Positions 557 to 24,116 of a stretch of DNA of 64,000 bases are shown piece by piece (the first letter of the stretch is position 1; each line of letters starts with the position of its first letter). Origin of the DNA: Candidatus Competibacter phosphatis (lineage in GTDB: Bacteria > Pseudomonadota > Gammaproteobacteria > Competibacterales > Competibacteraceae); the NCBI RefSeq assembly GCF_012939995.1, contig NZ_SPMZ01000022.1, forward strand, positions 537 through 64,536. The letters are read 5' to 3'. The notes under the pieces were generated by a model, which made no database searches, had not been told where the DNA came from, and was given only the letters and a program-made list of their open reading frames with translations. Both the position numbers and the translations under genes were made by a program.

Positions 557-1105
557 ATGAAGAAACATAATATCGAGCACCGAAAACCCTCCGTCCCTCC
601 GGTCCGCTCCGTGGATGTCGCCGCCCTTTCGCGCGAACTGGCCGCCTTGCCGGCGGTTCCGCCGACGGCGCGACCACGTACCCAGCGGGATCTGATCGAA
701 CAGTTACGCGAGCCGCTGATCGAGGCGTTGGTGGATCGCCACTACTCATTCGCGGCCTTGGCCGAGGTCTTGAGCCAGTGGGGCATCGATATCCGCCCCG
801 ATACCCTGCGCCGCTATCTCGGTCCGGTCGACCCCAACCGGAGGGTCTCGCCACGGAGGGTCCCGCCAGCGGATCGACCGCCCGTGGGCGAACCGTCACC
901 CGTGCCGAACGCACCACCGCGCGGGGGATCGCCCGATGCGATTGTCCGGCTGGACACCGCCTGGGCGGAGACGCCCTCGGAACCGCCCGTCCAGCCGCCG
1001 CGCGATCCGTCGGGTGAGCGGCCCGCCGATCCGCCAGCGGCCGAGCCCGGTACCTTCACGCCACGGCCCGAACGACCCATCGACTGGTACAAACCGTCTT
1101 CCTAA
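557..1105 (+). CDS. StbA-like DNA-binding protein, copy 2 with long proline-rich tail
   Basis: A 182-residue paralogue of the preceding gene. The same block (DLIEQLREPLIEALVDRH, YSFAALAEVLSQWGI, TLRRYLGP) sits at about residues 40-90. It is followed by some 90 residues rich in proline, arginine and alanine that are probably disordered. ATG 557 is chosen because it precedes the conserved part, although its ribosome-binding site is poor; an in-frame TTG at 518 is possible. The tandem pair suggests duplication followed by extension of one copy. The tail could mediate partner contacts, for example with the ATPase encoded 18 bases downstream, but that is inference. Confidence 0.5.
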   Translation: MKKHNIEHRKPSVPPVRSVDVAALSRELAALPAVPPTARPRTQRDLIEQLREPLIEALVDRHYSFAALAEVLSQWGIDIRPDTLRRYLGPVDPNRRVSPRRVPPADRPPVGEPSPVPNAPPRGGSPDAIVRLDTAWAETPSEPPVQPPRDPSGERPADPPAAEPGTFTPRPERPIDWYKPSS

Positions 1106-1123
1106 CTCCAAGGAGCACGCACG

Positions 1124-1892
1124 ATGAACGAATCGATCCTCCCCCCTGTTCTTGATCGGCGGCTGCAAGGGCGGCGTCGGCAAATCGATGGTCGGCGAGG
1201 CGCTGGTGGACGATCTCCTGCAACGCGGCCTACCGGTCTTATTGGTGGAAACGGATATCTCGGTACCGGATGTGTGGCGGGCCTACCAAAACGTATCGGG
1301 TGTCCAGGCGCTGACCCTGGACCTGGACGAGGTCGATGGCTGGATCGTCCTGAGCACCACGCTCTCCCAGCACCCGCATCATGTGGTGGTGATCAATACG
1401 GCGGCCCGGAACGACCGAGGGATCGTGGCCCACGGTCCCCTGCTGACCAAGGCTCTGGCTAAGCTGAACCGTCCCTTGGTCACCTTGTGGGTGATCAATC
1501 GCCAGCGAGACAGCCTGGAGCTGCTGGAAGACTATCTGAAGATCATGCCCGACGCACAAACGCATGTCGTCCGCAACGGACATTTCGGCCCGACCGAGAA
1601 GTTCGAGCTGTACAACACCTCGCCGCATCGCCAGCGGATCGAGGCGCGCGGCGGCCGGTCGCTGACCTTTCCAGACTTGGCCGACCGGGTGAGCGATGCC
1701 TTGCGCCTGGGGCGGCTGGCCATCTCCACGGCGCTGGATGAGCAACGCAACGATGGGCTTGATTTTGGCGGCCGCATCGAGTTGGAGCGTTGGCGCGAGC
1801 AAACCCGGCTCGTTTTCGACGCCATCGTGCCGATGGCCGGACGCCCCACGGCGGATCGGCCTGACGACGAAACCCACGCGGCGACCGCTTGA
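1124..1892 (+). CDS. StbB/ParA-like P-loop ATPase (frameshifted near start)
   Basis: A deviant Walker A motif, GGCKGGVGKS, lies near the N-terminus, as in ParA/MinD/StbB proteins that hydrolyse ATP to position DNA or conjugation machinery. A central VVVINTAARNDRG segment resembles the ParA motif A' region. A good start (ATG 1124, AGGAG 8 bases upstream) is out of frame with the Walker region. Dropping one C from the run of six at 1141-1146 joins them into a 255-aa protein beginning MNESILPLFLIGG. Otherwise translation would have to start at TTG 1152, inside the motif strand. The order StbA-like, StbA-like, ATPase, membrane protein matches plasmid-stability operons. Confidence 0.65.
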
Positions 1893-1941
1893 ACGCGGCC
1901 CTCGTCAATGCGACCCCGCTTTCCCGATCTTGGAGGTCTTG

Positions 1942-2556
1942 ATGAACGCACCGACTGAATCCGTGACCCGAGCCGCCGATGTCCCGCCCGGCCCCGCTCT
2001 CCACGAGAGCGCCTTTCAACAGGTCGTGGGCCGCTTGCCGAACGGAGCGGAACGGGCGCGGTTCGACGCGATCCGCAATGCCCTGCGGCTGCGCGACGAC
2101 GATGCCGTGTGGACCCTCTTCGTGGCGCTGGAGTATTACCTGAACCTCTACGAGCGGTTTCCGGCGATGATCCGGGGCGCCGCGCGCGAACTGCTGATCG
2201 AGTGTAAAAACGAGAGCGACCGGCATATCGCCCAGGCGAAACAGCAGGTCCAACAGCGGACGGAAGCCGCCGCCGTCGAGGTGGCGCAAGCGGCGGTCGC
2301 GGCGCACGCCTCGTTGGAGAAGACTATTCAACAGTCCGCCCGCCGGATCGCGCTCGCGGCCGGCTTCGCCGCCCGCTGGCCCTGGGTGCTGGGTGGCGCG
2401 GTGGCGATGGCGGCGGCGTTGATCCTCACCGGCGCGGTCGCCCTGGGTTTCGGGCGCCAGCAAGGTTACGCAGCCGGTTACACGGCGGGCTTTGCCGTGG
2501 CGATGCAACCGCAACGACCCTCAACAGCTCCATCGTCGCTTGGCCCTGGATTATAG
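1942..2556 (+). CDS. Membrane-anchored coiled-coil protein at the StbC position
   Basis: A 204-aa protein with GGAGG at 1932-1936 before ATG 1942. The first 120 residues are soluble (GRLPNGAERARFDAIRNAL; a segment like that in plasmid-mobilisation accessory proteins). An alanine- and glutamine-rich coiled coil follows at about 95-130. One transmembrane helix at about 150-175 (WVLGGAVAMAAALILTGAV) is followed by a short glycine/tyrosine-rich tail. It is the last gene of the stb-like operon and may anchor the ATPase at the membrane. I do not recognise a named family with certainty. The IS701 element sits 29 bp beyond its stop. Confidence 0.5.
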   Translation: MNAPTESVTRAADVPPGPALHESAFQQVVGRLPNGAERARFDAIRNALRLRDDDAVWTLFVALEYYLNLYERFPAMIRGAARELLIECKNESDRHIAQAKQQVQQRTEAAAVEVAQAAVAAHASLEKTIQQSARRIALAAGFAARWPWVLGGAVAMAAALILTGAVALGFGRQQGYAAGYTAGFAVAMQPQRPSTAPSSLGPGL

Positions 2557-2585
2557 CTTCACTATAGAATTGGAAATGGAATTAG

Positions 2586-4032
2586 TACTACAGTTGTAGA
2601 AACTCCCATAAAGTCATGGAGAGAGGACAGGACTTTGCACGTTGTCGTCGCCGCCAATGAAAATACTGGGCGATGCGCTGATGACGGCGTCGCCAACGGA
2701 ACCAATGGAGCATACAGTTTCGGTGAGAAAACGGTCCGGTCAGAGGGGTGATAAACCATAACCAACGGCGAAGGTCGGCCAAGGAGACCGTGACCGTGAC
2801 GGGTCTATCTGGAAGCGGTAGAGGTTTTTTTTCAACACACGCTGTCGACAACCGACGAGGAAGGCATAAGCGGCCATGACCAGCGTGATATGCCGGTACC
2901 AGCCGTGCCAGGTCCGCACTTCGTACTGATCCAGGCCCAGTTGCGACTTGGTTTCTTGAAAGCAGCGTTCGATGGCCCAACGGGCACCGGCGGCCAAGGC
3001 CAATTCGGCCAAGGAACAGGTCACGGGCGCGAAGGCCAAATAGGCGGTCAGACGCCCCTCATCCAAGGTGCGGCGGACCAGAAGATAGCGTTGGCCGATC
3101 GCCTCGGGCGGCGTGTTGATCGGTTGGCAAGTCCATTCGTACTCACGGGGTCCTTGGCCGCCAGCCCCCGCGCTGAGCCGCGCCCACGCGGTCTGCGGGT
3201 CGGTGGCGAGGGCGGCCAAGACGTCCCGCACTGCGTATTGGACCCCACCCTGCCAGAAATAAGTTTTACCACTGACCGCCAGAACATAGGGTTGATTCCG
3301 CTCCTCCAGACTGGCGCGCAGGCGATCGCTCTCTCCATACACCGCATCGCCGGTGACCCAACGGGCCGGGATGCCCGCGTCCAAAGCCCGCAGAATCATT
3401 TCACGCGCCAGTTCGGTTTTCGGCTGGTGCGCCACGTCGTCATCGATGCCCGCCCGCTGACAGCGCGCGCGATCCGCCGACCACGCTTCCGGGAGAAACA
3501 AGGCGCGGTCGATCAACCCCTGTCCCCAACAACTGGCATAGGCCAGAAACACGCCGACCTGACTGTTCTCGATCCGGCCCGCCGTGCCACTATCTTGGCG
3601 CTGCACCCCAGCAGAATGGCGGCCTTTCTTCAAAAAGCCGGTTTCATCGACGATCAAGACGCCTTCCGCATCCGCCAGCGCATGGATCACCCGAGCCCGC
3701 GCCGCATCCCGCACCCCGTCCGCATCCCATCGGGCACGGCCCAGTAAGTGCTGGAATCCATAGGGATGGGCCTCCCCTCGTGCTTCCGCCAACTGCCAAC
3801 AATTGCGTCGTTCCACCCCACCCAGCAACCCCTGGAGATACGCCGCCAGCCATTCGCGCGTCTCGAACCGTTTCGCGTAACCACCCAGTTCCGCAACCCA
3901 CTCGGCCCAGGCCGCTTCCCAATCCCTCGCGTCTCCTTCCCATTCATCCTGCCACGCTTCACCCATCACCAACCGTTCTCTCGGCAAAAAATCCAGATGA
4001 AGTATAAACTTGTATTATCTACAACTGTAGTA
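2586..4032 (-). mobile_element. IS701-family insertion sequence, complete
   Basis: A 1447-bp element with terminal inverted repeats TACTACAGTTGTAGA (2586-2600) and its complement (4018-4032). It is flanked by the direct repeat TTAG at 2582-2585 and 4033-4036. TTAG fits the 4-bp YTAR target duplication known for IS701. It carries one transposase on the minus strand. The right-hand TTAG forms the outer edge of the next IS, so the element landed precisely at that border. Confidence 0.9.
2740..3987 (-). CDS. IS701-family DDE transposase
   Basis: An intact 415-aa transposase that cuts and joins the element's ends. Catalytic-type motifs are visible in order: IVDETGFLKKG (first Asp) near residue 115, VTGDAVYGES (second Asp) near 220, and RWAIERCFQETKSQLGLDQY (Glu region) near 340. 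It begins with AEWVAELGGYAKRFETRE, typical of the family. Length and single-ORF structure match IS701 members. No frameshift is seen, so the element may be active. Confidence 0.9.
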   Translation of the reverse strand: MPRERLVMGEAWQDEWEGDARDWEAAWAEWVAELGGYAKRFETREWLAAYLQGLLGGVERRNCWQLAEARGEAHPYGFQHLLGRARWDADGVRDAARARVIHALADAEGVLIVDETGFLKKGRHSAGVQRQDSGTAGRIENSQVGVFLAYASCWGQGLIDRALFLPEAWSADRARCQRAGIDDDVAHQPKTELAREMILRALDAGIPARWVTGDAVYGESDRLRASLEERNQPYVLAVSGKTYFWQGGVQYAVRDVLAALATDPQTAWARLSAGAGGQGPREYEWTCQPINTPPEAIGQRYLLVRRTLDEGRLTAYLAFAPVTCSLAELALAAGARWAIERCFQETKSQLGLDQYEVRTWHGWYRHITLVMAAYAFLVGCRQRVLKKNLYRFQIDPSRSRSPWPTFAVGYGLSPL

Positions 4033-4035
4033 TTA

Positions 4036-4884
4036 GAACGTGTTCACGATCTCCTGCTGAGTCTGCGAACATCGGGGGATGCGTACGAAGAGATACCCCA
4101 GTGACATCAGTAGAGAACAGTTTGGGCAACTTTTGCCGCTGCTGGAGCAGGCCAGGCGCAAAACCAAGCCCAGGACGGTAGACCTGTACGAGGTGTTTTG
4201 CGCCGTGCTGTACCTGCTACGCACGGGCTGCCAGTGGCGAGCGCTGCCCAGTGACTTTCCCAAGTGGCGCACGGTGCATTCGTACTTCGCCCAGTGGAGC
4301 GAGCCGGGCCAGGATGGCGTGAGCCTGCTGGAGCGGGCATTAAAAAATCAGGTTGGCGCGGCCCGCGAGCGACAGGGGCGTAACGCCTCCAGCACGCTCT
4401 TGATCGTGGACGCACAGCGTGTGAAGAACACGGACACAGCGGACCTGAAGGGCTATGACGCCGGCCAGAAGGTCTCGGGCATCAAGCGCCACATCGCGGT
4501 GGATACCCAGGGGTTGCCGCATGCGGTGGCGGTGACCACGGCAGAGGTCACGGACCGCAAGGGAGCCTTGCAGGCCTTCAAGCGCCGCAAGGCAGCGCTG
4601 AACCGAGTGCAAAGCGTACTGACCGACAGCAGCTACACGGGCGAGCCCTTTGCGCGGGGCGTGCGCGAGGTGCTGGGCGAGCAGGTCACTGTGCAGATTG
4701 CCAAACGCAGCGAGCTGCACACCTTCAAAGTCATGCCCAAGCGTTGGGTGGTGGAGCGCAGCTTTGCTTGGCTGGACAAGAATCGCAGACTATCGAAAAA
4801 CCGCGAGCGCTGGCTCAATACCAGCCTGCAGTTCGTCCACTTGGCATTCCTGGCATTGCTGCTCAGGAGATCGTGAACACGTTC
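4036..4884 (+). mobile_element. IS5-family insertion sequence, complete
   Basis: An 849-bp element with matching ends: GAACGTGTTCACGATCTCC on the left and its complement ending at 4884. It is flanked on both sides by TA (4034-4035 and 4885-4886), the 2-bp target of the IS427 subgroup. The transposase stop lies inside the right inverted repeat. On its right it interrupts a group II intron relic; on its left it is abutted by the IS701 element. The ends closely resemble those of the second IS5-family element at 18915-22274. Confidence 0.85.
4079..4876 (+). CDS. IS5-family transposase
   Basis: An intact 265-aa single-frame transposase. The N-terminal DUF4096-like part reads RTGCQWRALPSDFPKW near residue 50. 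The catalytic Asp regions are LLIVDAQRVKNTD near 110 and VLTDSSYTGEPFA near 185. The C-terminal signature ERSFAWLDKNRRLSKNRERW is near 230. Most IS427-type elements encode the transposase in two frames; here it is one continuous ORF. Confidence 0.9.
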   Translation: MRTKRYPSDISREQFGQLLPLLEQARRKTKPRTVDLYEVFCAVLYLLRTGCQWRALPSDFPKWRTVHSYFAQWSEPGQDGVSLLERALKNQVGAARERQGRNASSTLLIVDAQRVKNTDTADLKGYDAGQKVSGIKRHIAVDTQGLPHAVAVTTAEVTDRKGALQAFKRRKAALNRVQSVLTDSSYTGEPFARGVREVLGEQVTVQIAKRSELHTFKVMPKRWVVERSFAWLDKNRRLSKNRERWLNTSLQFVHLAFLALLLRRS

Positions 4885-5395: not shown

Positions 5396-6243
5396 GTTTT
5401 CGCGTGATCCGCCAGAGACCGGTAGATGCCCGCCGAGCGCGACAGGAAGTGTATTAGGCACACAGGGGGTGAGCCACCTGTGGCAATCGTGCTGAAATAG
5501 TCTCTGTCGGCCTCGACCTGCGCTTGAAACTGCGTGGGGTTGCGGCCATACAGCAGGGTCAATGCGCTGTAGTTGATGGCGCGGTTCTTCTCGCACCGCT
5601 CGTCCGTCAGCCGGAACACGAACTTCCACAGAGCCTTGAAGACACCCTTCTCGACCTCCGGATTGAAGCGCGAGAAATACTTGCTTTCCAAGTACGCCTT
5701 CAGCTTCTTGTCGTCGATCAGGATGCCGGACACCTACTCAAGATCTTCGACCAGGTCACCCACGATCTGCTTGGACAAGATCGGCGCCTTCATGAGCAGG
5801 CTGTCGAGCGCGTTGCGAATCAGGGCACGAGCCGTGTCACGGTTCAGGCGATGCATCTGGAAATTGGCGTTGACCACTGGGTGCGCAGCAAGGTGGCGCT
5901 GACGTTGCAGGTGCAGCAGGTTCTCCCGCTCGGCGATGTCGAGCAACTGTGTCTGCTCGGCCACCGACTCCACCATCTTCGATTCCCATTCCGAAGACCA
6001 TTCGTTGGCCTGCTGCAGCTTGCCGATCTCGACCAGAATGGTCTTGGCCTTGTCGTCACCGTAGAGATCGACGAGATGCTGGAGCTTGAATAGCAGGTTA
6101 CAGACCACGACCGACCACAGCATCACGACAGTCGACCGGTAGTCGCCCGCCGCGTAGCAGTTCAACACCTCGGAGAAGTATTCCTTGCTGCGGGCGTCGA
6201 AGATCTGCGTTGCGCCTTGCTCGATGGAGTATTCGTCCAGCAT
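5347..6243 (-). pseudogene. HEPN-like protein at end of defence operon, interrupted by a TAG stop and truncated
   Basis: The last gene of the defence operon starts at ATG 6243 (GTG 6246 possible) and overlaps the helicase stop. The first 169 residues are helical and contain an Rx4H motif (R116-H121, RHLAAH), the signature of HEPN RNases. A TAG at 5734-5736 stops it, but the frame stays open afterwards (SGILIDDKKLKAYLESKY and on) to 5396. The last codons (SARDMCKFLSLLTG) come from the inverted-repeat element, so the native C-terminus is lost. If the TAG is a base-call error the protein would be about 298 aa. HEPN membership is a motif-level inference. Confidence 0.5.
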
Positions 6244-9023
6244 CACGCCTCCCGACCGATGATTTCGACGTAGCTGATCAGTTCCACCGAATAGCTGCCA
6301 TCGCCATTCGCGGCTCCCTTGTGTTTCAGCTCCCGCTGCAGGGTCGGTTCAACGGCGTGGGTGAACAGGTCGCTCCGCTGTTCGGGCCGGAACATCGGTT
6401 TGGCAGGCGGCGCTTGCAGGAACTTCTCGCACAGGCGCTCGACCGCCGGAACGCGCGTGCCGTCCTGTTTGACGGCAATGGGCTGCACGACCACGCGGCG
6501 TTCGCCCTTGCCAGCCGATGCTTCAACCATCCACAGCGACAGCAGCACCAGCTCGTCGACGTCGCCGGACACGGCGATGCCGACTTCCTCCGGCGGCACG
6601 CTGCGCCAGCGGCCCAACTCGTCCTGTACCAAAGGGTGATCCAAGCCCATCAGTTGCAGATCGTCCTGATTGGTCGCGGCTTCACGGCTCAGGGTGAAGC
6701 GGGCACGGTGCGTGCCTTCGACGGTAACGAGGTCGTAGGTTGCATCGTCTACCTTGACCAGTTTCTGCTGGTGATCCGCGACCGCTGCCGACAGAAAGCG
6801 CACCAGCCGATCCAGGCTGGACGACACGTCCGAGAAGGGCTTGTAGTCGTCGAGGCTGAAGCCGTCGAGGTCTTGGAACAAGTCGAACACCACCTGCCGC
6901 GCTTCGCGGGAATTCGATAGCGCCGCCTCCAGCTCCACCTGCGTGCGTTTCAGCTCCGGGTCGGACAGCGCCTCCTGATACAGGCGGTCGTAGTTCAAGC
7001 GTTCCGACAACTGCCCAAGAATCTGTGCACGCAGATCTTCGGCCACGTTGCCCTGATCGTCCACCTTGCCGACAGTGCGAGCGATCTCGGTCAGCTTTTC
7101 GTCGAGCAGCAGGAAGATGCGGCCTTCGATGGTGTCGGACAGCACAAGGTTGTAGACCTGCGCGGTGTGGCTCTGGCCGTAGCGATGGATGCGCCCGATG
7201 CGCTGCTCCATTTCCATCGGGTTCCACGGCAGATCGAAATTGAACAAGACGCGCGCAAATTGCAGGTTGATGCCTTCGCGCCCGGCCGCCGTGCAGACCA
7301 GTACGCGCGGGCCGTCCTTGTGGCGGAAGCGCCGCTCCGCCGCCACCTTCGCGCCGTGGTCGCCGCCGCGCAGCACGGCGACGCCCTGACCGGGGAAGGC
7401 CTGTTCGGTCTCACGGGCGATCATGTTCACCGTGCCGAGGTAGGTGGCAAAGATCACGATCTTCTCGTTGGGGTTCTGCCGCCACAGCGTGCCCAAGCCA
7501 TTGAGCAGCTTTTGCATCTTGGTTTCGCGCTCTGCCGGGAACACGCGCAGCAGGTCGCCGACGCGCAGGCGCTCCTCGGGCAGATGCAGGTTCACCACCG
7601 CCGAAGCGGCTTCTTCCGCGTGCGTGGCCGAATACTCGCTGCCGTAGGGGTCGGAGGCCATCTCCAGCGCCTTTTCGTCCAGCTTCTTGACCAACCGGTA
7701 CTTCAGATCGGCCAGCACACGATCCACCTCGCAACGCCCGACGCTGTCGCGCGGCAAACCGAATTCCTCGTGAATCAGATTGCGCGCTTCTTCGGTCAGC
7801 CGTTCGCGGCCTTCGATGTCCAGTTCCTTGTCGCGCAGGAACGCCTCGTGCAGTGTCAGCATCAGCAAGCGGCGCTTGAGCGTGCGGCGCACGGCGGCAA
7901 AGCTCGATGCCGCGATCTTCTGGAAGATCGCCATCAGGAAGCCCAGCGCGCGCCCCTGATTGCCCTGGCGGCGCGCGAGGTCGAAGCCGTCCTCCAGATA
8001 CTCGCGCAGCTTCTCGTAGAACAGCCGCTCGGCTTGGTTCATCACGAAGGATTCGGTGTGAACCCAGCGCCGCGCGAACAGCGGCGAGCCATCGGGCTGG
8101 CAGGCGTCCGCCTTGGTGCGGCGGAACATCACCGTGTTGAGCCGGTGCCGCTCCTCCACCATCTCCTCCGGGCTATGGAACAGCGTCGGGTTCAGCAGTT
8201 GCGCCAGCATCCAGAACTGGAAGTGATTGCCCTGATGTGGCGTGGCTGACAACAACACGAGGTCGCGCGAATGATCCTTCAACGCCTCGGCCAGCTTGTA
8301 GTTCTCCGTTTTGCGCACCTTGCCGCCGGTACGGTAGGCGGTCAAGTGGTGCGCTTCGTCGAACACCACCAGATCCCAACGCGGCGCATCCAGCAGGCGC
8401 TTGATGCGCGCCGGGCGCTTCAGGGTGTCGATGCTGGCGATCAGCCGGTCATGCTTGGCGAAGGCGTTGGTCTTGCGGTCGGTGATGTCGCCCTCGGAGC
8501 CGAACACCTCGAAGTCGAGATTGAACACCTCGTTCAATTCGCGGTGCCAGTTGTTCACAAGACCAGCGGGCACCACCATCAGCGCGCGCTTCAATTCGCC
8601 GCGGCTGGCCAGCTCACGCAGGATCAGCGCAGTTTCGATGGTTTTGCCCAAGCCCACCTCGTCGGCGATCAGGTAGCGCCGGGGCGACGCGGTAGCAATG
8701 CGATGCGTCAGCACCACCTGGTGCGGCAGCAGGTCAATCTTGGCCGAGGTCAGCGCCGAGGCGCTTTCCATCACCGGAAGTGCGTGCGCTTCGTAGGATA
8801 GCCACGCCTTGCGCCCGCGCTCCGCGCCGCCATCCACTGCACGCAGGATGCGCTCAGTGCGCGTGAGTTCGCGCCGTAGCGAGGCGACGGGCACTCGGCG
8901 TTCGCCAATGCTGAAAAATGCGCGGAGGTAGCCGTCACGCTCCAGGTCGAGTACCACGCCCTGGCCATACTCATGGTGGGTGATGCGCTCGCCAGGCGCG
9001 AACGGGGCAGGACTATCCAGCAT
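6243..9023 (-). CDS. SNF2/RapA-like DEAH helicase of the defence operon (BrxHII-like)
   Basis: A 926-aa superfamily 2 ATPase. An N-terminal Tudor-like segment (ITHHEYGQGVVLDLERDG) resembles RapA. It is followed by Walker A DEVGLGKT (121-128), DEAH (222-225), SATPHQGN near 255 and motif VI QRIGRIHRYGQ near 600. It is expected to translocate on or remodel DNA. ATG 9023 is chosen because AGGGAAGGAC precedes it and the RapA-like part begins there; the frame is open further upstream. It overlaps the AlbA_2 gene by 11 bases and its own stop overlaps the next start. Large helicases of this kind occur in BREX (BrxHI/BrxHII) and DISARM systems. Confidence 0.85.
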   Translation of the reverse strand: MLDSPAPFAPGERITHHEYGQGVVLDLERDGYLRAFFSIGERRVPVASLRRELTRTERILRAVDGGAERGRKAWLSYEAHALPVMESASALTSAKIDLLPHQVVLTHRIATASPRRYLIADEVGLGKTIETALILRELASRGELKRALMVVPAGLVNNWHRELNEVFNLDFEVFGSEGDITDRKTNAFAKHDRLIASIDTLKRPARIKRLLDAPRWDLVVFDEAHHLTAYRTGGKVRKTENYKLAEALKDHSRDLVLLSATPHQGNHFQFWMLAQLLNPTLFHSPEEMVEERHRLNTVMFRRTKADACQPDGSPLFARRWVHTESFVMNQAERLFYEKLREYLEDGFDLARRQGNQGRALGFLMAIFQKIAASSFAAVRRTLKRRLLMLTLHEAFLRDKELDIEGRERLTEEARNLIHEEFGLPRDSVGRCEVDRVLADLKYRLVKKLDEKALEMASDPYGSEYSATHAEEAASAVVNLHLPEERLRVGDLLRVFPAERETKMQKLLNGLGTLWRQNPNEKIVIFATYLGTVNMIARETEQAFPGQGVAVLRGGDHGAKVAAERRFRHKDGPRVLVCTAAGREGINLQFARVLFNFDLPWNPMEMEQRIGRIHRYGQSHTAQVYNLVLSDTIEGRIFLLLDEKLTEIARTVGKVDDQGNVAEDLRAQILGQLSERLNYDRLYQEALSDPELKRTQVELEAALSNSREARQVVFDLFQDLDGFSLDDYKPFSDVSSSLDRLVRFLSAAVADHQQKLVKVDDATYDLVTVEGTHRARFTLSREAATNQDDLQLMGLDHPLVQDELGRWRSVPPEEVGIAVSGDVDELVLLSLWMVEASAGKGERRVVVQPIAVKQDGTRVPAVERLCEKFLQAPPAKPMFRPEQRSDLFTHAVEPTLQRELKHKGAANGDGSYSVELISYVEIIGREA

Positions 9024-18914: not shown

Positions 18915-19127
18915 GAACCTGTTCACAAAGGGTATAATTTTCTGAGCATGATGGAGCTGGAAGCGATGTAAACCATCGCTTCGGAGGACTTGGGGGGAAT
19001 GCTCGAAGTCCTTGGAGAGCCTTCGGTGCCATGCAAACCATGCGAAGGTGCGCTCGATGGCTCAACACACTGCTGTCATACAAGCATGATTTTGGCGTCG
19101 GGTAGGGCATGCGAATGACCTCGAGCG

Positions 19128-21288
19128 TTAAGATCGGCGAAGGGTATCCCGTGTAATAGTCTCGGGCGGTGGGGCGTCAAGCCAGCGCTGGCGGCGGGTG
19201 TCGCTGACCGGTACCGCCCGGCGCTGGCGGAGCCGTTCGAGTTCGGCGGAATCGGCCCAGACGATCCAGCGCCGGTTCGCCTCATGGCGACGGGCGATGA
19301 CCCAGCCGCATTGAATCCAATGGTGCAACGTGGTGCCGGGCATGTCCAGGGTGCGGGCCAGATCGGCCAACCACCAGTCGTCCGGCGGGAGCGGGACCGC
19401 GCGTCGGGGGCGTGGCTGGCGGGTACCCAGTTGCTGGAGCAAGGCGCGGATCGTCTCGGGACGGAACCGTTCGGCGGTTTTCGGCGGATGATAGCCTTCC
19501 TGCCGCAGGCGGTCGGCGATCGCTGGGGCCTTTATAGCCCTGTTGCGCTAACTGACGGACGCGCGCGCAGAGTTGGGGGTAATGACTGAGGTGTGCCAAC
19601 CGGCCCACCGGGTGAATGACGACCCCATTGGTTTGATGGCCTCCCGCCCACTGCAGGGTCACGTGCAGCCGTTCGCTGTGGCCCTCATTCGCGATGTCGA
19701 TGTGCTCGATCACCTCGCGGATCAGCGCCTTGCGTTCCACCGCCGTCGTGGTGGGCGCCTGCCAGAGCGCCGGCAGGTCCTGCGCGAGCTGGCGGACGGC
19801 TTCCCGTTCGGTCGCCGACAGCGTCGGCGGTTGCTGGGAGCAAAAGCGCCGGTAATCCTCTTGCAGGCGCTGCTGGGTGGCCAGCGCGGCCTCCCACTCC
19901 TGGGCCAACGAGCGCGCCACTAGCCGGTTTTCCGGCTCGCACAGCCGGTAGTGACGGGCGGCGCGGTCCGCGGCAAACGCCGCGCGCTCCAGCCGTTGCC
20001 GCCACAGCCGATCAAGCGCCGCCCGTTCCTGCTCCAGGTGGGCCGCCGCCGCCAAGGAGCACTCCAGCGCCGCCGGCGCCAGCGCTTCAAGGACCTGCCG
20101 GCTGACGAACGCGTCCAGGGCCGGCCCCGGCAGATACTGGCAAGCGGGTTCGCCGTAGTCGGTCGACCGGCGACTGCAGGTGTAGCTGTGGAGCGGCGGG
20201 GTTCCCCCATAGCGCACGAACATCCGAGCGCCACAGCGGCCACAGACGAGCAGACCGGCCAGCAGCGCGGCACCCGGCCGCGCCGCCCCGCGCGCCTCGG
20301 CCCGGGCCCGGTTCGCCGCCAGTTGCGCTTGATGGCGTTCGTACTCCGCCCAACTGATATAGGCGGGCACGCGATCCGGAATCAGCACATGGTAGCGTTC
20401 GGGTCCGCAGGTCATCCGCCCCGTGCGCGGGCAGCCGGGCTGGTGTTTGCGCGGGTCCACCTGCCGGCGGCCATAGGCGTAGGCGCCCGCATACATGGGA
20501 TTTTTCAGCAGATTTTGCAGTGTCATCCGGCTGGGGCGGCGCCACTCCAGCGTCCCTTTAGCGACGCCTTCGCGAACCCGTACCCCCAGGCGGATGTCGT
20601 GGTGGAGCAGGTAGCGCAGCAGCGCATGCAAGGTGCCCAACTCGCCGAACTGGTGGAAGATCAGGCGCACGACGTGCTGTACCTGCTCGTCCGGGTCGAA
20701 GCCCACCTCGCCCGAGGGGTGGCGGACGTAGCCGATCGGCAGGGCAAAGGCCAACTCGCCCCGGCGCGCCTTGTTCAGCTTGCCGTGGTGCAAGCGTTGC
20801 TTGAGGACATGTAGTTCGGCTTCCGACATCGTGCCTTTCAGCCCCAACAGCAAGCGATCGTTGTACTGGCTCGGATCGTAGACTCCATCGAGATCGGCAA
20901 TCAGCGTCCCAAACAGGGCGCAGATTTCCAGCAGTTGATACCAATCCTTGGACGAACGGGCCAGCCGCGACATCTCCAAGCCCAGGATCAGTCCCACATG
21001 ATCCAAGCCGACTTCGCTGACCAGCCGGCCAAAGCCCGCCCGGCCCGCCGCGCTCGCGCCGGATTTGCCCAGGTCGTCATCGATGACCAACACCCGGCTC
21101 GCCGGCCAGCCCAAGGCCGCCGCCTGGTTGACCAGGCCGTACTGCAAGCGGGTGGACTCTTGATGATCCAGCACCTGCTGAACGGTGGATTGGCGCACGT
21201 AAACCACCGCCAACCGCTCCAGATGCCGCGACTGAATCTTCTCCGACCGCCACTGCGGCGCCCACTCAACCACCGGTTGCGGAACCAT
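19128..21288 (-). CDS. Large serine recombinase of the nested element (frameshifted near C-terminus)
   Basis: An N-terminal resolvase domain with catalytic serine (VVYVRQSTVQQV, residue about 32), GLEMSRLARSSKDW and KGTMSEAELH. It continues with a Recombinase domain (GYVRHPSGEVGFD; NPMYAGAYAYGRR) and a zinc ribbon (LLVCGRCGARMF with a later YTC) near residue 355. The frame shifts at about 19531, where one extra C in CCCC diverts it. Corrected, it continues AIADRLRQEGYHPPKTAERF and ends with a MerR-like winged helix (LARTLDMPGTTLHHWIQCGW), 719 aa in all. The reaction is serine-mediated cleavage and strand rotation. Confidence 0.8.
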
Positions 21289-21394
21289 TACGGTTCTCCT
21301 CCGGTCGGGGGCGGGCGGCGAGCCACCGTTCCACCAGCTGGCTGAGCAGCGTCACCACCCGTTGTCGGCTGGCCGGCGGCAACTGCGACCACAC
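21266..21394 (-). CDS. Small ORF overlapping the recombinase start
   Basis: A 42-residue frame (GTG 21394) reading MWSQLPPASRQRVVTLLSQL, then VERWLAARPRP. Its stop lies 21 bases inside the recombinase gene, a coupling geometry I associate with serine-recombinase IS-like units. The N-terminus could extend upstream, since codons before the GTG are open in the same frame. Function unknown; probably an accessory DNA-binding or regulatory peptide of the element. Confidence 0.4.
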   Translation of the reverse strand: MWSQLPPASRQRVVTLLSQLVERWLAARPRPEENRNGSATGG

Positions 21395-22699
21395 CGGGAG
21401 AGGTTGGCGGATTATAGGCGGGGGGGGAACCGTTCGGGGGTACCTTCCTCTTCGGGCAAGCAGGGAGCGGCCCGCAACTTGCCAACCACCTCAACAAGTT
21501 TCAGCAGGGCCGTGATGTCAATGATAGGACAATCGGAACTTGATGCTTCTATGAGGGCAGTGTGGTTGGGTGATATCGACGATCCAGCGTTTGGGCAGGA
21601 CGACAAACTGGGGAACATCGGGTCGTTTGACGACTTCAAGGCAGTAGCCGAACAGGGCTTTGGCCCAATCGATGACGCCCTGCTTGTAGCCGCCATCGAC
21701 GAAGATTTTGCGCAGGTGGGGCAGGCGGATAAACAATCGAATCAGCACCCGATGACCGCCCCGTGTGTCGGAAATACCGCAGGAGTGCGCAACGACCGTC
21801 AGGAGGTGGCCTGGCGTGTCAGTGGCGATGTGGCGCTTGCGGCCTTTGATCCGCTGGCCGGCATCGTCGCCGCGTTGCCCCCTTTTTGCACCGTCTTCAC
21901 ACTCTGGCTGTCCATGATGGCTACGGTGGGATCGGGATCACGTCCGGCCTTGATGCGCACCTGGCACCGCAAGTGGTGATGGATCGCCACCCAGGTTCCG
22001 GCGTTACGCAAACGCCAGAAGGTCATGGACACCGCGCGCCAGGGCGGAAAATCCTTCGGCAACATCCGCCATGGGCGACCGCTGCGCTCCACGTACCGGA
22101 TCACGTTATATAGGCTTCGCACCGGATGTTTGCGGGGCCGTCCGATGTGCTCGGGTTCGAAAAACCGTTCGATCTCCGCCCATTCCCGGTCGCTCACGTC
22201 GCTGGGATACCCCATCGCTCTGTCCTCCTGATGGACAGAGTCGCGCCTATCTTCATGGCGTTGTGAACAGGTTCTAAGATGTTCTCCCAGGCGCAGCAGC
22301 AACCCACGGAATACCCCGGGCAGATCGTTCTCGCCGTCCTCCAGAATCGCCGGCAGGCGTTGGGCAATCTGATGGATGCCCGGCGGGATGACGATCCCGT
22401 ACTCGGCCAACTAGCCGCGCATCTGGTTCGCCTGGGCGGTGCGTGCCTTGACGAGGCTTTGCCGGGCGCGATGCAGCGCCAGCACCGCCTGTTGTTCGCC
22501 GGTCTTGATCGGCACGAAACGCATGTTCGGCCGGTCCACGGCTTCGCAGATCGCTTCGGCGTCCGCCGCGTCATTCTTGTTGGTTTTCACGTAGGGTTTG
22601 ACGAACTGTGGAGCCATGAGCTTGACAGTGTGCCCGAGTTTCTCGAACGCCCTCGCCCAATAATGTGCCCCGCCGCAGGCTTCCATGCCAATCAGACAC

Positions 22700-24116
22700 C
22701 ATCCGATTACCCATAATTCATCCATCCCCCACATACACGGCACGGGTAGCCGCAAAGGCAATGGCAAACGCTCTCACTTTTTGCATCCCTTCCCAGATCG
22801 CTTTGGGACCGGGATGACCGTCATGTTTGCGGCCGAGAAAGCCGCCGAAGCCGGCGATCAGGCGCACCATCTGGCCCAGAGGTGGAGGTGTTTCGGGCGG
22901 TGGGGTGCGATGGGCCACGATCCAGGCGGCCTGCCATTCCTCGGGATCGAACACCACGTCACAGGGCAGATTCGGGCAGTCCCGGCCCCAGGTGACTAGA
23001 TGCAGGATGCGCCAGGCGATCATCAGGTAAAGGACCAAAGCCCGTTCCAACCGCTCCAGGGTGCCCAGTTGCAGGGCCTCGACCCGGCAGCCGGATTTCC
23101 AAATCCGGAAAAAAAATTTCCACCAGCCAGCGGCGACGATACCCATCAATCAGTTCCACGACCGCCTCAAGCGTTTCCGCTGTCCGGTTGGTCAGCAGCC
23201 GCCACTCAATCGCCTGCTCACCCGCCGGCGGCTGTTCCTCCCGCGCCAGGATCGCGGTCACGGTCACGGCGGGTTGGCCGTGATGGGCCGGCAGCGTCGC
23301 CACGGTGCGATACAGCGTCTGCCGCACCGACCGGGCGGGGCGATCCGACGCCGCCGGCAGGGTGAATTCGACCTCGCCCAGCGGTTCGCTCCGGGCCAGC
23401 CGCGCCCACAGCTTCTCGCCGGTGGTGGTTTTGCGGTCGTGCTTCGACCGGATCAGCCAATCGGCCGGCGTGCCGCGCCGGGCGGCGGCATCGATCAGCG
23501 CCCGCAGGTCGCCTTCCCGATCCGCCACGTACACCAATCGGGTATCGGGGAGGGTCTCCGCCAGATCGGCCACGATCGCGTAGCCTTCGACCCAGCGGGT
23601 GCTTTCCTTGACGTCGGGCTGGTCTTTGGGTTTGCGCACCCAGATCCAGGCATCCAGCACCCCCAACGCCACCCCGGCCGGCGTCACCGCCAAGGTCGGA
23701 TGCACGTACAGTCCATGCTGGGCCTCGTAGCTGAGTCGTCCCAGCCCGGCAATCCCCGGTTGCGACGTGAAATCCGCTTGGGTCGTGTCTTGAATGCACA
23801 AGACCACCGGCTGACCGGCCATCCGCTCCACCGTCCGCGTGGTATGGACCTCCAAAATCTCCCGCCACTCCACCGCCGGATTGTCCAGCAACCGGTAGGC
23901 CGCCTTGGTCTCGGGCCAGCCCCCGCAGGCCAGTGGGATACTCCCGGTCGGCTGGGCCGACAGATCGTCCACCAATTTGATCAAGCGCTGGGTCCGCCGC
24001 GCATCCCCCAGCTCCAGATCGTGAAACTCGGCCTGTGCCCAACTCATGCCGCACGCCTATCGCTTGATGAAAAATTACATCTTAACAATGAGTTGGGATT
24101 TGTGGGTAATCGGATG
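22700..24116 (-). mobile_element. IS4-family insertion sequence, complete
   Basis: A 1417-bp element with terminal inverted repeats starting CATCCGATTACCCA, flanked by the 11-bp direct repeat CAATCAGACAC (22689-22699 and 24117-24127). An 11-bp duplication fits the 10-13 bp known for IS4. It lies inside the IS110-family gene, and removing it plus one repeat restores the IS110 frame. Confidence 0.9.
22718..24047 (-). CDS. IS4-family transposase (frameshifted at A8 run)
   Basis: MSWAQAEFHDLELGDARRTQ with GSIPLACGGWPETKAAYRLL is the Tn5/IS4-type N-terminal DNA-binding domain. IQDTTQADFTSQPG near 108 and VYVADREGDLRALID near 185 hold the two catalytic Asp residues. The YREK signature appears as Y-x2-R-x3-E-x6-K (YRRRWLVEIFFRIWK) once one T is removed from the T8/A8 run at 23108-23115. 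Corrected length is 442 aa. Without correction the protein loses the catalytic Glu context and the C-terminal third. Confidence 0.85.

Follow-up and report, generated by a model that had tools for sequence, protein, structure and literature searches.

What kind of element interrupts the transposase gene of an IS5-family insertion sequence (IS) in Candidatus Competibacter phosphatis, and what brings it to that position? The window, a 64-kb stretch of DNA analysed as a whole, carries a 2,522-bp unit inside this gene, and an earlier note on the same DNA had proposed a serine transposon with inverted repeats and a repeated TCGA target. Comparison with related loci suggests another answer, to which we assign a probability of about 85%: the window copy is one insertion of a cargo-free lineage of large serine recombinases (LSRs) that integrates at the stretch of DDE transposase genes that codes for the catalytic-glutamate motif. 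Target specificity was absent from the earlier note, yet it is the main finding here.

The window copy and its coding content

On the minus strand, the IS5-group DDE transposase reads RWIV and then, 2,522 bases further on, ERTFAWF. That a serine-recombinase mobile element sits precisely in this gene, as the earlier note had it, is borne out by the Pfam domains of the recombinase, by the restored RWIV-ERTFAWF frame, and by an IS5 copy without the insertion on another contig of the same genome (G000:C73, L011), which has one TCGA against the two of the window. This copy aligns with the left flank as far as CTCGATG, and with the right flank from TCGA, at 88-92% identity, and since it aligns with both flanks the empty site is shown, beyond deduction. 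The host IS5 is about 838 bp once the element is removed; its transposase ORFs match DUF4096, and the gene seems to be frameshifted too, near homopolymers. The region is rich in insertion sequences, with transposase remnants beside the IS5 at 22411-24047 that we take to be IS110-like and IS4-like. The features of the locus are as follows.

18915..22274, minus strand: interrupted host IS5-group insertion sequence, recognized by its termini GAACCTGTT...AACAGGTTC, its transposase ORFs and the L011 homologue
19054..19055, TC on plus, GA on the transposase strand: core dinucleotide, left copy, within TCGA 19054-19057
19056..19081, plus strand: P arm (attP half-site) at the recombinase 3' end, GATGGCTCAACACACTGCTGTCATAC
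19128..19442, minus strand: continuation of the recombinase, C-terminal helix-turn-helix region (104 aa), collinear with the C-terminus of intact relatives
19282..21288, minus strand: large serine recombinase ORF (Resolvase PF00239, Recombinase PF07508, Zn_ribbon_recom PF13408)
19525..19528: G4 tract, apparent one-base frameshift site by comparison with intact relatives
21266..21394, minus strand: body of conserved small reading frame ORF2 (..VWSQLPPASRQRVVTLLSQLVERWL..), in a frame different from that of ORF1
21412..21576, minus strand: small reading frame ORF1 (..PIIDITALLKLVEVVGKL..), conserved in relatives
21420..21427, minus strand: C8 tract between the small frames; most relatives other than the Streptomyces group keep it as C6-C8
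21550..21575, minus strand: P arm (attP half-site) at the recombinase 5' end, TATCACCCAACCACACTGCCCTCATA
21576..21577, TC on plus: core dinucleotide, right copy, within TCGA 21576-21579; bases 1-2 of the catalytic Glu codon (RWIV|E)

The recombinase has the domains that define an LSR, a Resolvase domain with the nucleophilic serine and, after it, Recombinase and zinc-ribbon domains. Ser36 of YVRQST and the four zinc-ribbon cysteines are invariant in all nine relatives compared, and profile comparison identifies YokA and the phiC31 integrase as its kin of solved structure. As read, the ORF encodes 668 aa, with its C-terminus out of frame past about 19528. The extra base, apparently in the G4 tract, is either a mutation or an assembly error, and the frameshift may have disabled the window copy. 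The continuation ORF (19128..19442) gave no match in a Pfam scan. AlphaFold produced a poor model of the whole recombinase (pTM 0.34), which was left out of fold searches, and a helix-turn-helix model of a relative's C-terminal region (pLDDT 79, pTM 0.44). Weak PDB matches of the latter include a phage Xis and MerR-like proteins, and no match reached E < 0.001; a Xis/MerR-like identity for this extra region is a lead only.

Beyond two terminal half-sites and the recombinase gene, the element consists of one or two small reading frames. ORF1 and ORF2 flank the conserved C6-C8 tract, each in a frame of its own, in the window (21266-21576) and in L012, L015, L018, L071 and L083, and share a single frame in L025 and L079; the Streptomyces group has no C-tract. 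This arrangement looks like programmed slippage that would yield one small protein, and no start codon is a consistent candidate for ORF1 across relatives. A clade of 42-46% identity (L006, L073, L111, L121) carries an extra upstream helix-turn-helix gene (..VQVKYEMLR..).

Ends, core and insertion sites of the relatives

Relatives were drawn from species genomes (58 loci), plasmids, one viral contig and whole-genome samples, and their hosts span Cyanobacteria, Chloroflexota, Actinomycetota, Planctomycetota and Proteobacteria. In an LSR tree built without TnpX/TndX sequences, the transposase-targeting LSRs form a supported clade. Ends were called with a P-arm profile covering the 24 bases inside the core and using no flanking sequence; its seeds were loci whose ends were visible, and GA/TC cores received a score bonus. 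Both ends were called in 35/60 relatives, in 0 gene-internal control windows and in 0/300 shuffles, where 35/60 is not an independent recovery rate, since the profile was trained on the arms of many of the same loci. These counts show that the two-ended calls are not chance, and do not imply unbiased recovery. Automatic inverted-repeat calling had been wrong at many loci, where it returned long low-identity matches, and the profile was used in its place; a brute-force search of the uncalled loci for inverted ends with an open joined frame was dropped as noisy, with many chance matches. In the window, the arm at 21550..21575 scores 29.5-30.2. The opposite arm (19056..19081) is degenerate, with a short indel relative to its partner, and the two match each other only when that indel is allowed; the profile missed it, and it was entered by hand owing to the indel.

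Alignment of the window with 26 other two-ended sites places the common crossover at GA, read on the strand of the transposase. The window copy does have TCGA on either side and imperfect inverted repeats at its limits, as described earlier from the sequence, and both would fit a serine transposon with inverted-repeat ends whose insertion duplicates a 4-bp TCGA target. The other copies have the shared ends and lack the TCGA repeat; what they hold in common is GA alone, and we thus read the crossover as the 2-bp GA, with TCGA a longer identity due to chance. Nor do inverted ends set the unit apart as a class of serine transposon. The earlier note held that LSR attachment sites normally have no inverted repeats, whereas the A118 attP is a pseudo-palindrome of 25-bp half-sites around a central dinucleotide (PMC3783163), and the ends seen here match such half-sites. 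A TCGA-duplicating transposon is therefore scarcely credible. The two inverted half-sites of these elements, placed around a central dinucleotide common with the target, form the attP expected of an LSR.

Homologues differ in how the core is oriented with respect to the recombinase gene. At L023, two related elements abut near 4688 with their left ends facing each other across GA, where TC would be expected; this is possibly the outcome of antiparallel recombination in which the core is mismatched, or an assembly artefact. L016 holds a nested copy (around 855-3414), inserted where another related element has its attachment site, and was rejected as an off-target gene (L016a) on that ground. 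An apparent inverted duplication at L104/L105 was likewise rejected, longer flanks revealing ordinary insertions. L140 carries a second, more distant LSR gene (5565-7665), apparently frameshifted, adjoining the first.

Among 27 non-redundant two-ended insertions, 25 break up a DDE transposase gene, at the codon for the catalytic glutamate, a share whose true value is uncertain given the off-target cases and about a dozen loci without called ends. The 27 sites are phylogenetically related, and two loci (L018 and L050) are variants of one IS; merged, the count is 24/26. At the on-target sites, the GA core forms bases 1-2 of the Glu codon within Y-x2-R-x3-E-x6-K or its IS5/ISAs1 variants. The Glu of the motif Y-(2)-R-(3)-E-(6)-K in the IS4 literature is the DDE Glu (PMC2266710). 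The joined frame is open at all 25 of these sites, with ends called from element-internal sequence only. Two-ended targets include IS5, IS4 and ISAs1 transposases, and Pfam matches transposase families in 18/18 joined-flank proteins, 17 of them with a DDE domain and the remaining one with a Tn5-type DNA-binding domain only. Further sites, resolved manually or at a single end, show the same residue struck in IS3 (L039, both halves, YDNAPM|ESFFHTLK), IS6 (L046, 3' half) and IS630 (L072 and L145, 5' halves), where the Pfam matches are rve, DDE_Tnp_IS240 and DDE_3, and in IS701-like genes.

The exceptions are informative about an alternative, in which an ordinary LSR element of low specificity inserts widely and its insertions into IS genes survive because those genes are dispensable. 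Multi-targeting LSRs do exist (PMC10083194), Tn4451-type elements are low in specificity (PMC5704250), and 2/27 sites lie outside transposases: L017, and L110, which is in or by a tyrosine integrase gene. A further locus, L047, lies in an IS256 transposase away from the Glu. Survival of insertions wherever they do no harm would predict hits in any dispensable sequence, against the 25/27 observed at one catalytic residue across several IS families. The position of the insertions largely refutes this alternative, which we consider very improbable.

Other targets occur at the edges of the group. A Planctomycete subclade (L041, L146, L147), nested inside the wider clade, splits a gene at Y[AC]V|EK. 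This gene is presumably DUF1257; a Pfam scan of the DUF1257-like 91-aa half returned no match. A sister clade, monophyletic with full support, inserts in group II intron reverse transcriptases at an RPLG[IV] motif, again with a GA core. Its four loci are L140-L143, of which L143 holds both halves of the reverse transcriptase, the downstream half matching RVT_1 and a maturase domain.

How would such a site be recognized? The common half-site, GCTGGnnn[AG]TnGA, encodes R-W-x-[IV]-E, its core part TGGnnn[AG]TnGA encoding W-x-[IV]-E. Set in register with the P arms, the upstream half of attB has a mean profile score of 0.1 (shuffled, -14.2, sd 7.4), and the downstream half scores -13.7, unlike P arms. 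The target half-site thus resembles the element's own attP half-sites, and an attB defined by one P-like half-site plus GA is plausible. At L005, L097 and L102 the site is on target and its upstream half is not P-arm-like, so that one-sided mimicry is not universal and other lineages presumably read the motif differently.

In the mechanism that we favor, the recombinase would circularize the element by joining its ends, creating a pseudo-palindromic attP with GA at its centre, and this attP would recombine at the GA dinucleotide with a genomic GCTGGnnn[AG]TnGA carrying one P-arm-like half-site. The core position comes from comparison; the chemistry, circle formation, catalysis and directionality would be those of the LSR family. 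Conserved transposase genes would supply the R-W-x-[IV]-E half-site everywhere. Because the transposase is truncated at or just after the glutamate, the IS copy entered is very probably silenced.

Probable independent insertions in Leptolyngbya PCC 7375

A 2.56-kb element is present in Leptolyngbya PCC 7375 in at least 14 near-identical copies, which fix its exact ends; joined in a circle, these ends would give GGCTGGCGCATT-GA-GATACGCCAGCC, pseudo-palindromic about the central GA. This genome also gives the best footing to another alternative, a rare LSR insertion after which the interrupted IS carried the element as a passenger in a composite unit. A 303-bp empty-site query returned 22 half matches, which correspond to 11 occupied copies of one IS4-like element, all 11 interrupted at the identical nucleotide, and no unoccupied copy. 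Every composite is bounded by its own outer target repeats, which would fit movement as a unit as well as separate insertions. The sequences of the 11-copy IS tell against carriage: the elements are near-identical, and the host IS copies differ right beside the core. In the ten copies compared in full, 8/2,568 sites vary in the element against 9/302 in the core-adjacent IS (Fisher p 1.6e-5), which points to independent insertions and not to one spreading composite, though gene conversion confined to the element may be an alternative source of this pattern. The same element also occupies a second, different IS of that genome as well as other places in it, and other genomes have unrelated IS families struck at the same residue. 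For the second IS (L020 and L052), the compared flanks are identical (385 and 950 bp) and the elements differ at 3 sites, and here carriage or duplication is possible. As a general account, passenger spread seems to us quite improbable, and we retain integration at the glutamate motif as the explanation.

A broader reading is more tentative, and as a whole rather unlikely. It would describe a hyperparasite lineage that homes on the catalytic codons of mobile elements (the DDE Glu of at least six IS families and, in the sister clade, reverse transcriptase RPLG[IV]P), that has been repeatedly retargeted, and that silences IS with the aid of a fused C-terminal winged-helix (Xis/MerR-like) domain and a small C-tract slippage protein. 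The narrower reading has consequences enough, as the element, which sits at this codon here and in dozens of other genomes, appears to specialize in striking and breaking insertion sequences. Transposases are very abundant, and no part of them is less dispensable than the catalytic motif; an integrase reading that motif as DNA would find targets in almost any genome and could hardly lose them through target mutation. It would also disarm each IS that it entered and, if the reading is correct, act as a natural brake on insertion sequences. A recombinase would then be exploiting a protein-level motif, and the lineage would offer a set of LSRs with a ready-made, motif-defined attB, allowing specificity to be compared over many natural targets.

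Relationship to known systems

LSR transposons, multi-targeting LSRs, and mobile elements inside IS or prophage genes are already known. In the open-access full texts searched, we found no description of an LSR lineage aimed at the catalytic-Glu codon across IS families, and such an absence is weak evidence of novelty. The phiC31, A118 and SPbeta/YokA-type LSRs likewise have Resolvase, Recombinase and zinc-ribbon domains, a pseudo-palindromic attP and a central dinucleotide. In contrast to these phage and integrative LSRs, the element described here has no phage or conjugation cargo, its site is a coding motif of many IS families and not one locus, and its recombinase has an extra C-terminal helix-turn-helix region.

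Tn4451/TnpX, TndX and the multi-targeting LSR clade likewise use several targets and reach multiple copies per genome. Transposition of Tn4451-type elements is driven by an LSR and occurs between 2-bp identical sequences (PMC5704250), and DUF4368 is found in 63% of the LSRs of the multi-targeting clade (PMC10083194). Those elements are of low specificity or bear DUF4368, whereas here a coding motif is struck. DUF4368 is absent from the Pfam matches of the window protein, which is still compatible with kinship, as 63% carry it. In the IS607 family, a serine recombinase likewise drives transposition, with an N-terminal DNA-binding domain and neither terminal inverted repeats nor target duplication (PMC6188088). 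The present recombinase is instead large, with its catalytic domain near the N-terminus and its DNA-binding domains C-terminal, and the ends are inverted; the small recombinase, N-terminal DNA-binding domain and non-inverted ends of IS607 members are not found.

Life within another mobile element has parallels of different mechanism. The group II intron RmInt1 lives inside the transposase gene of ISRm2011-2 and limits that IS (PMC4238363), but it enters one IS by RNA-based retrohoming, where the element described here would use DNA recombination in many IS families. Helper-embedded PICIs have a clade of integrases in which new sites, inside genes of other mobile elements, have evolved repeatedly (PMC10111431). 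These PICIs are satellites that carry cargo and reside in prophage late genes, whereas the present lineage is cargo-free and resides in transposase genes.
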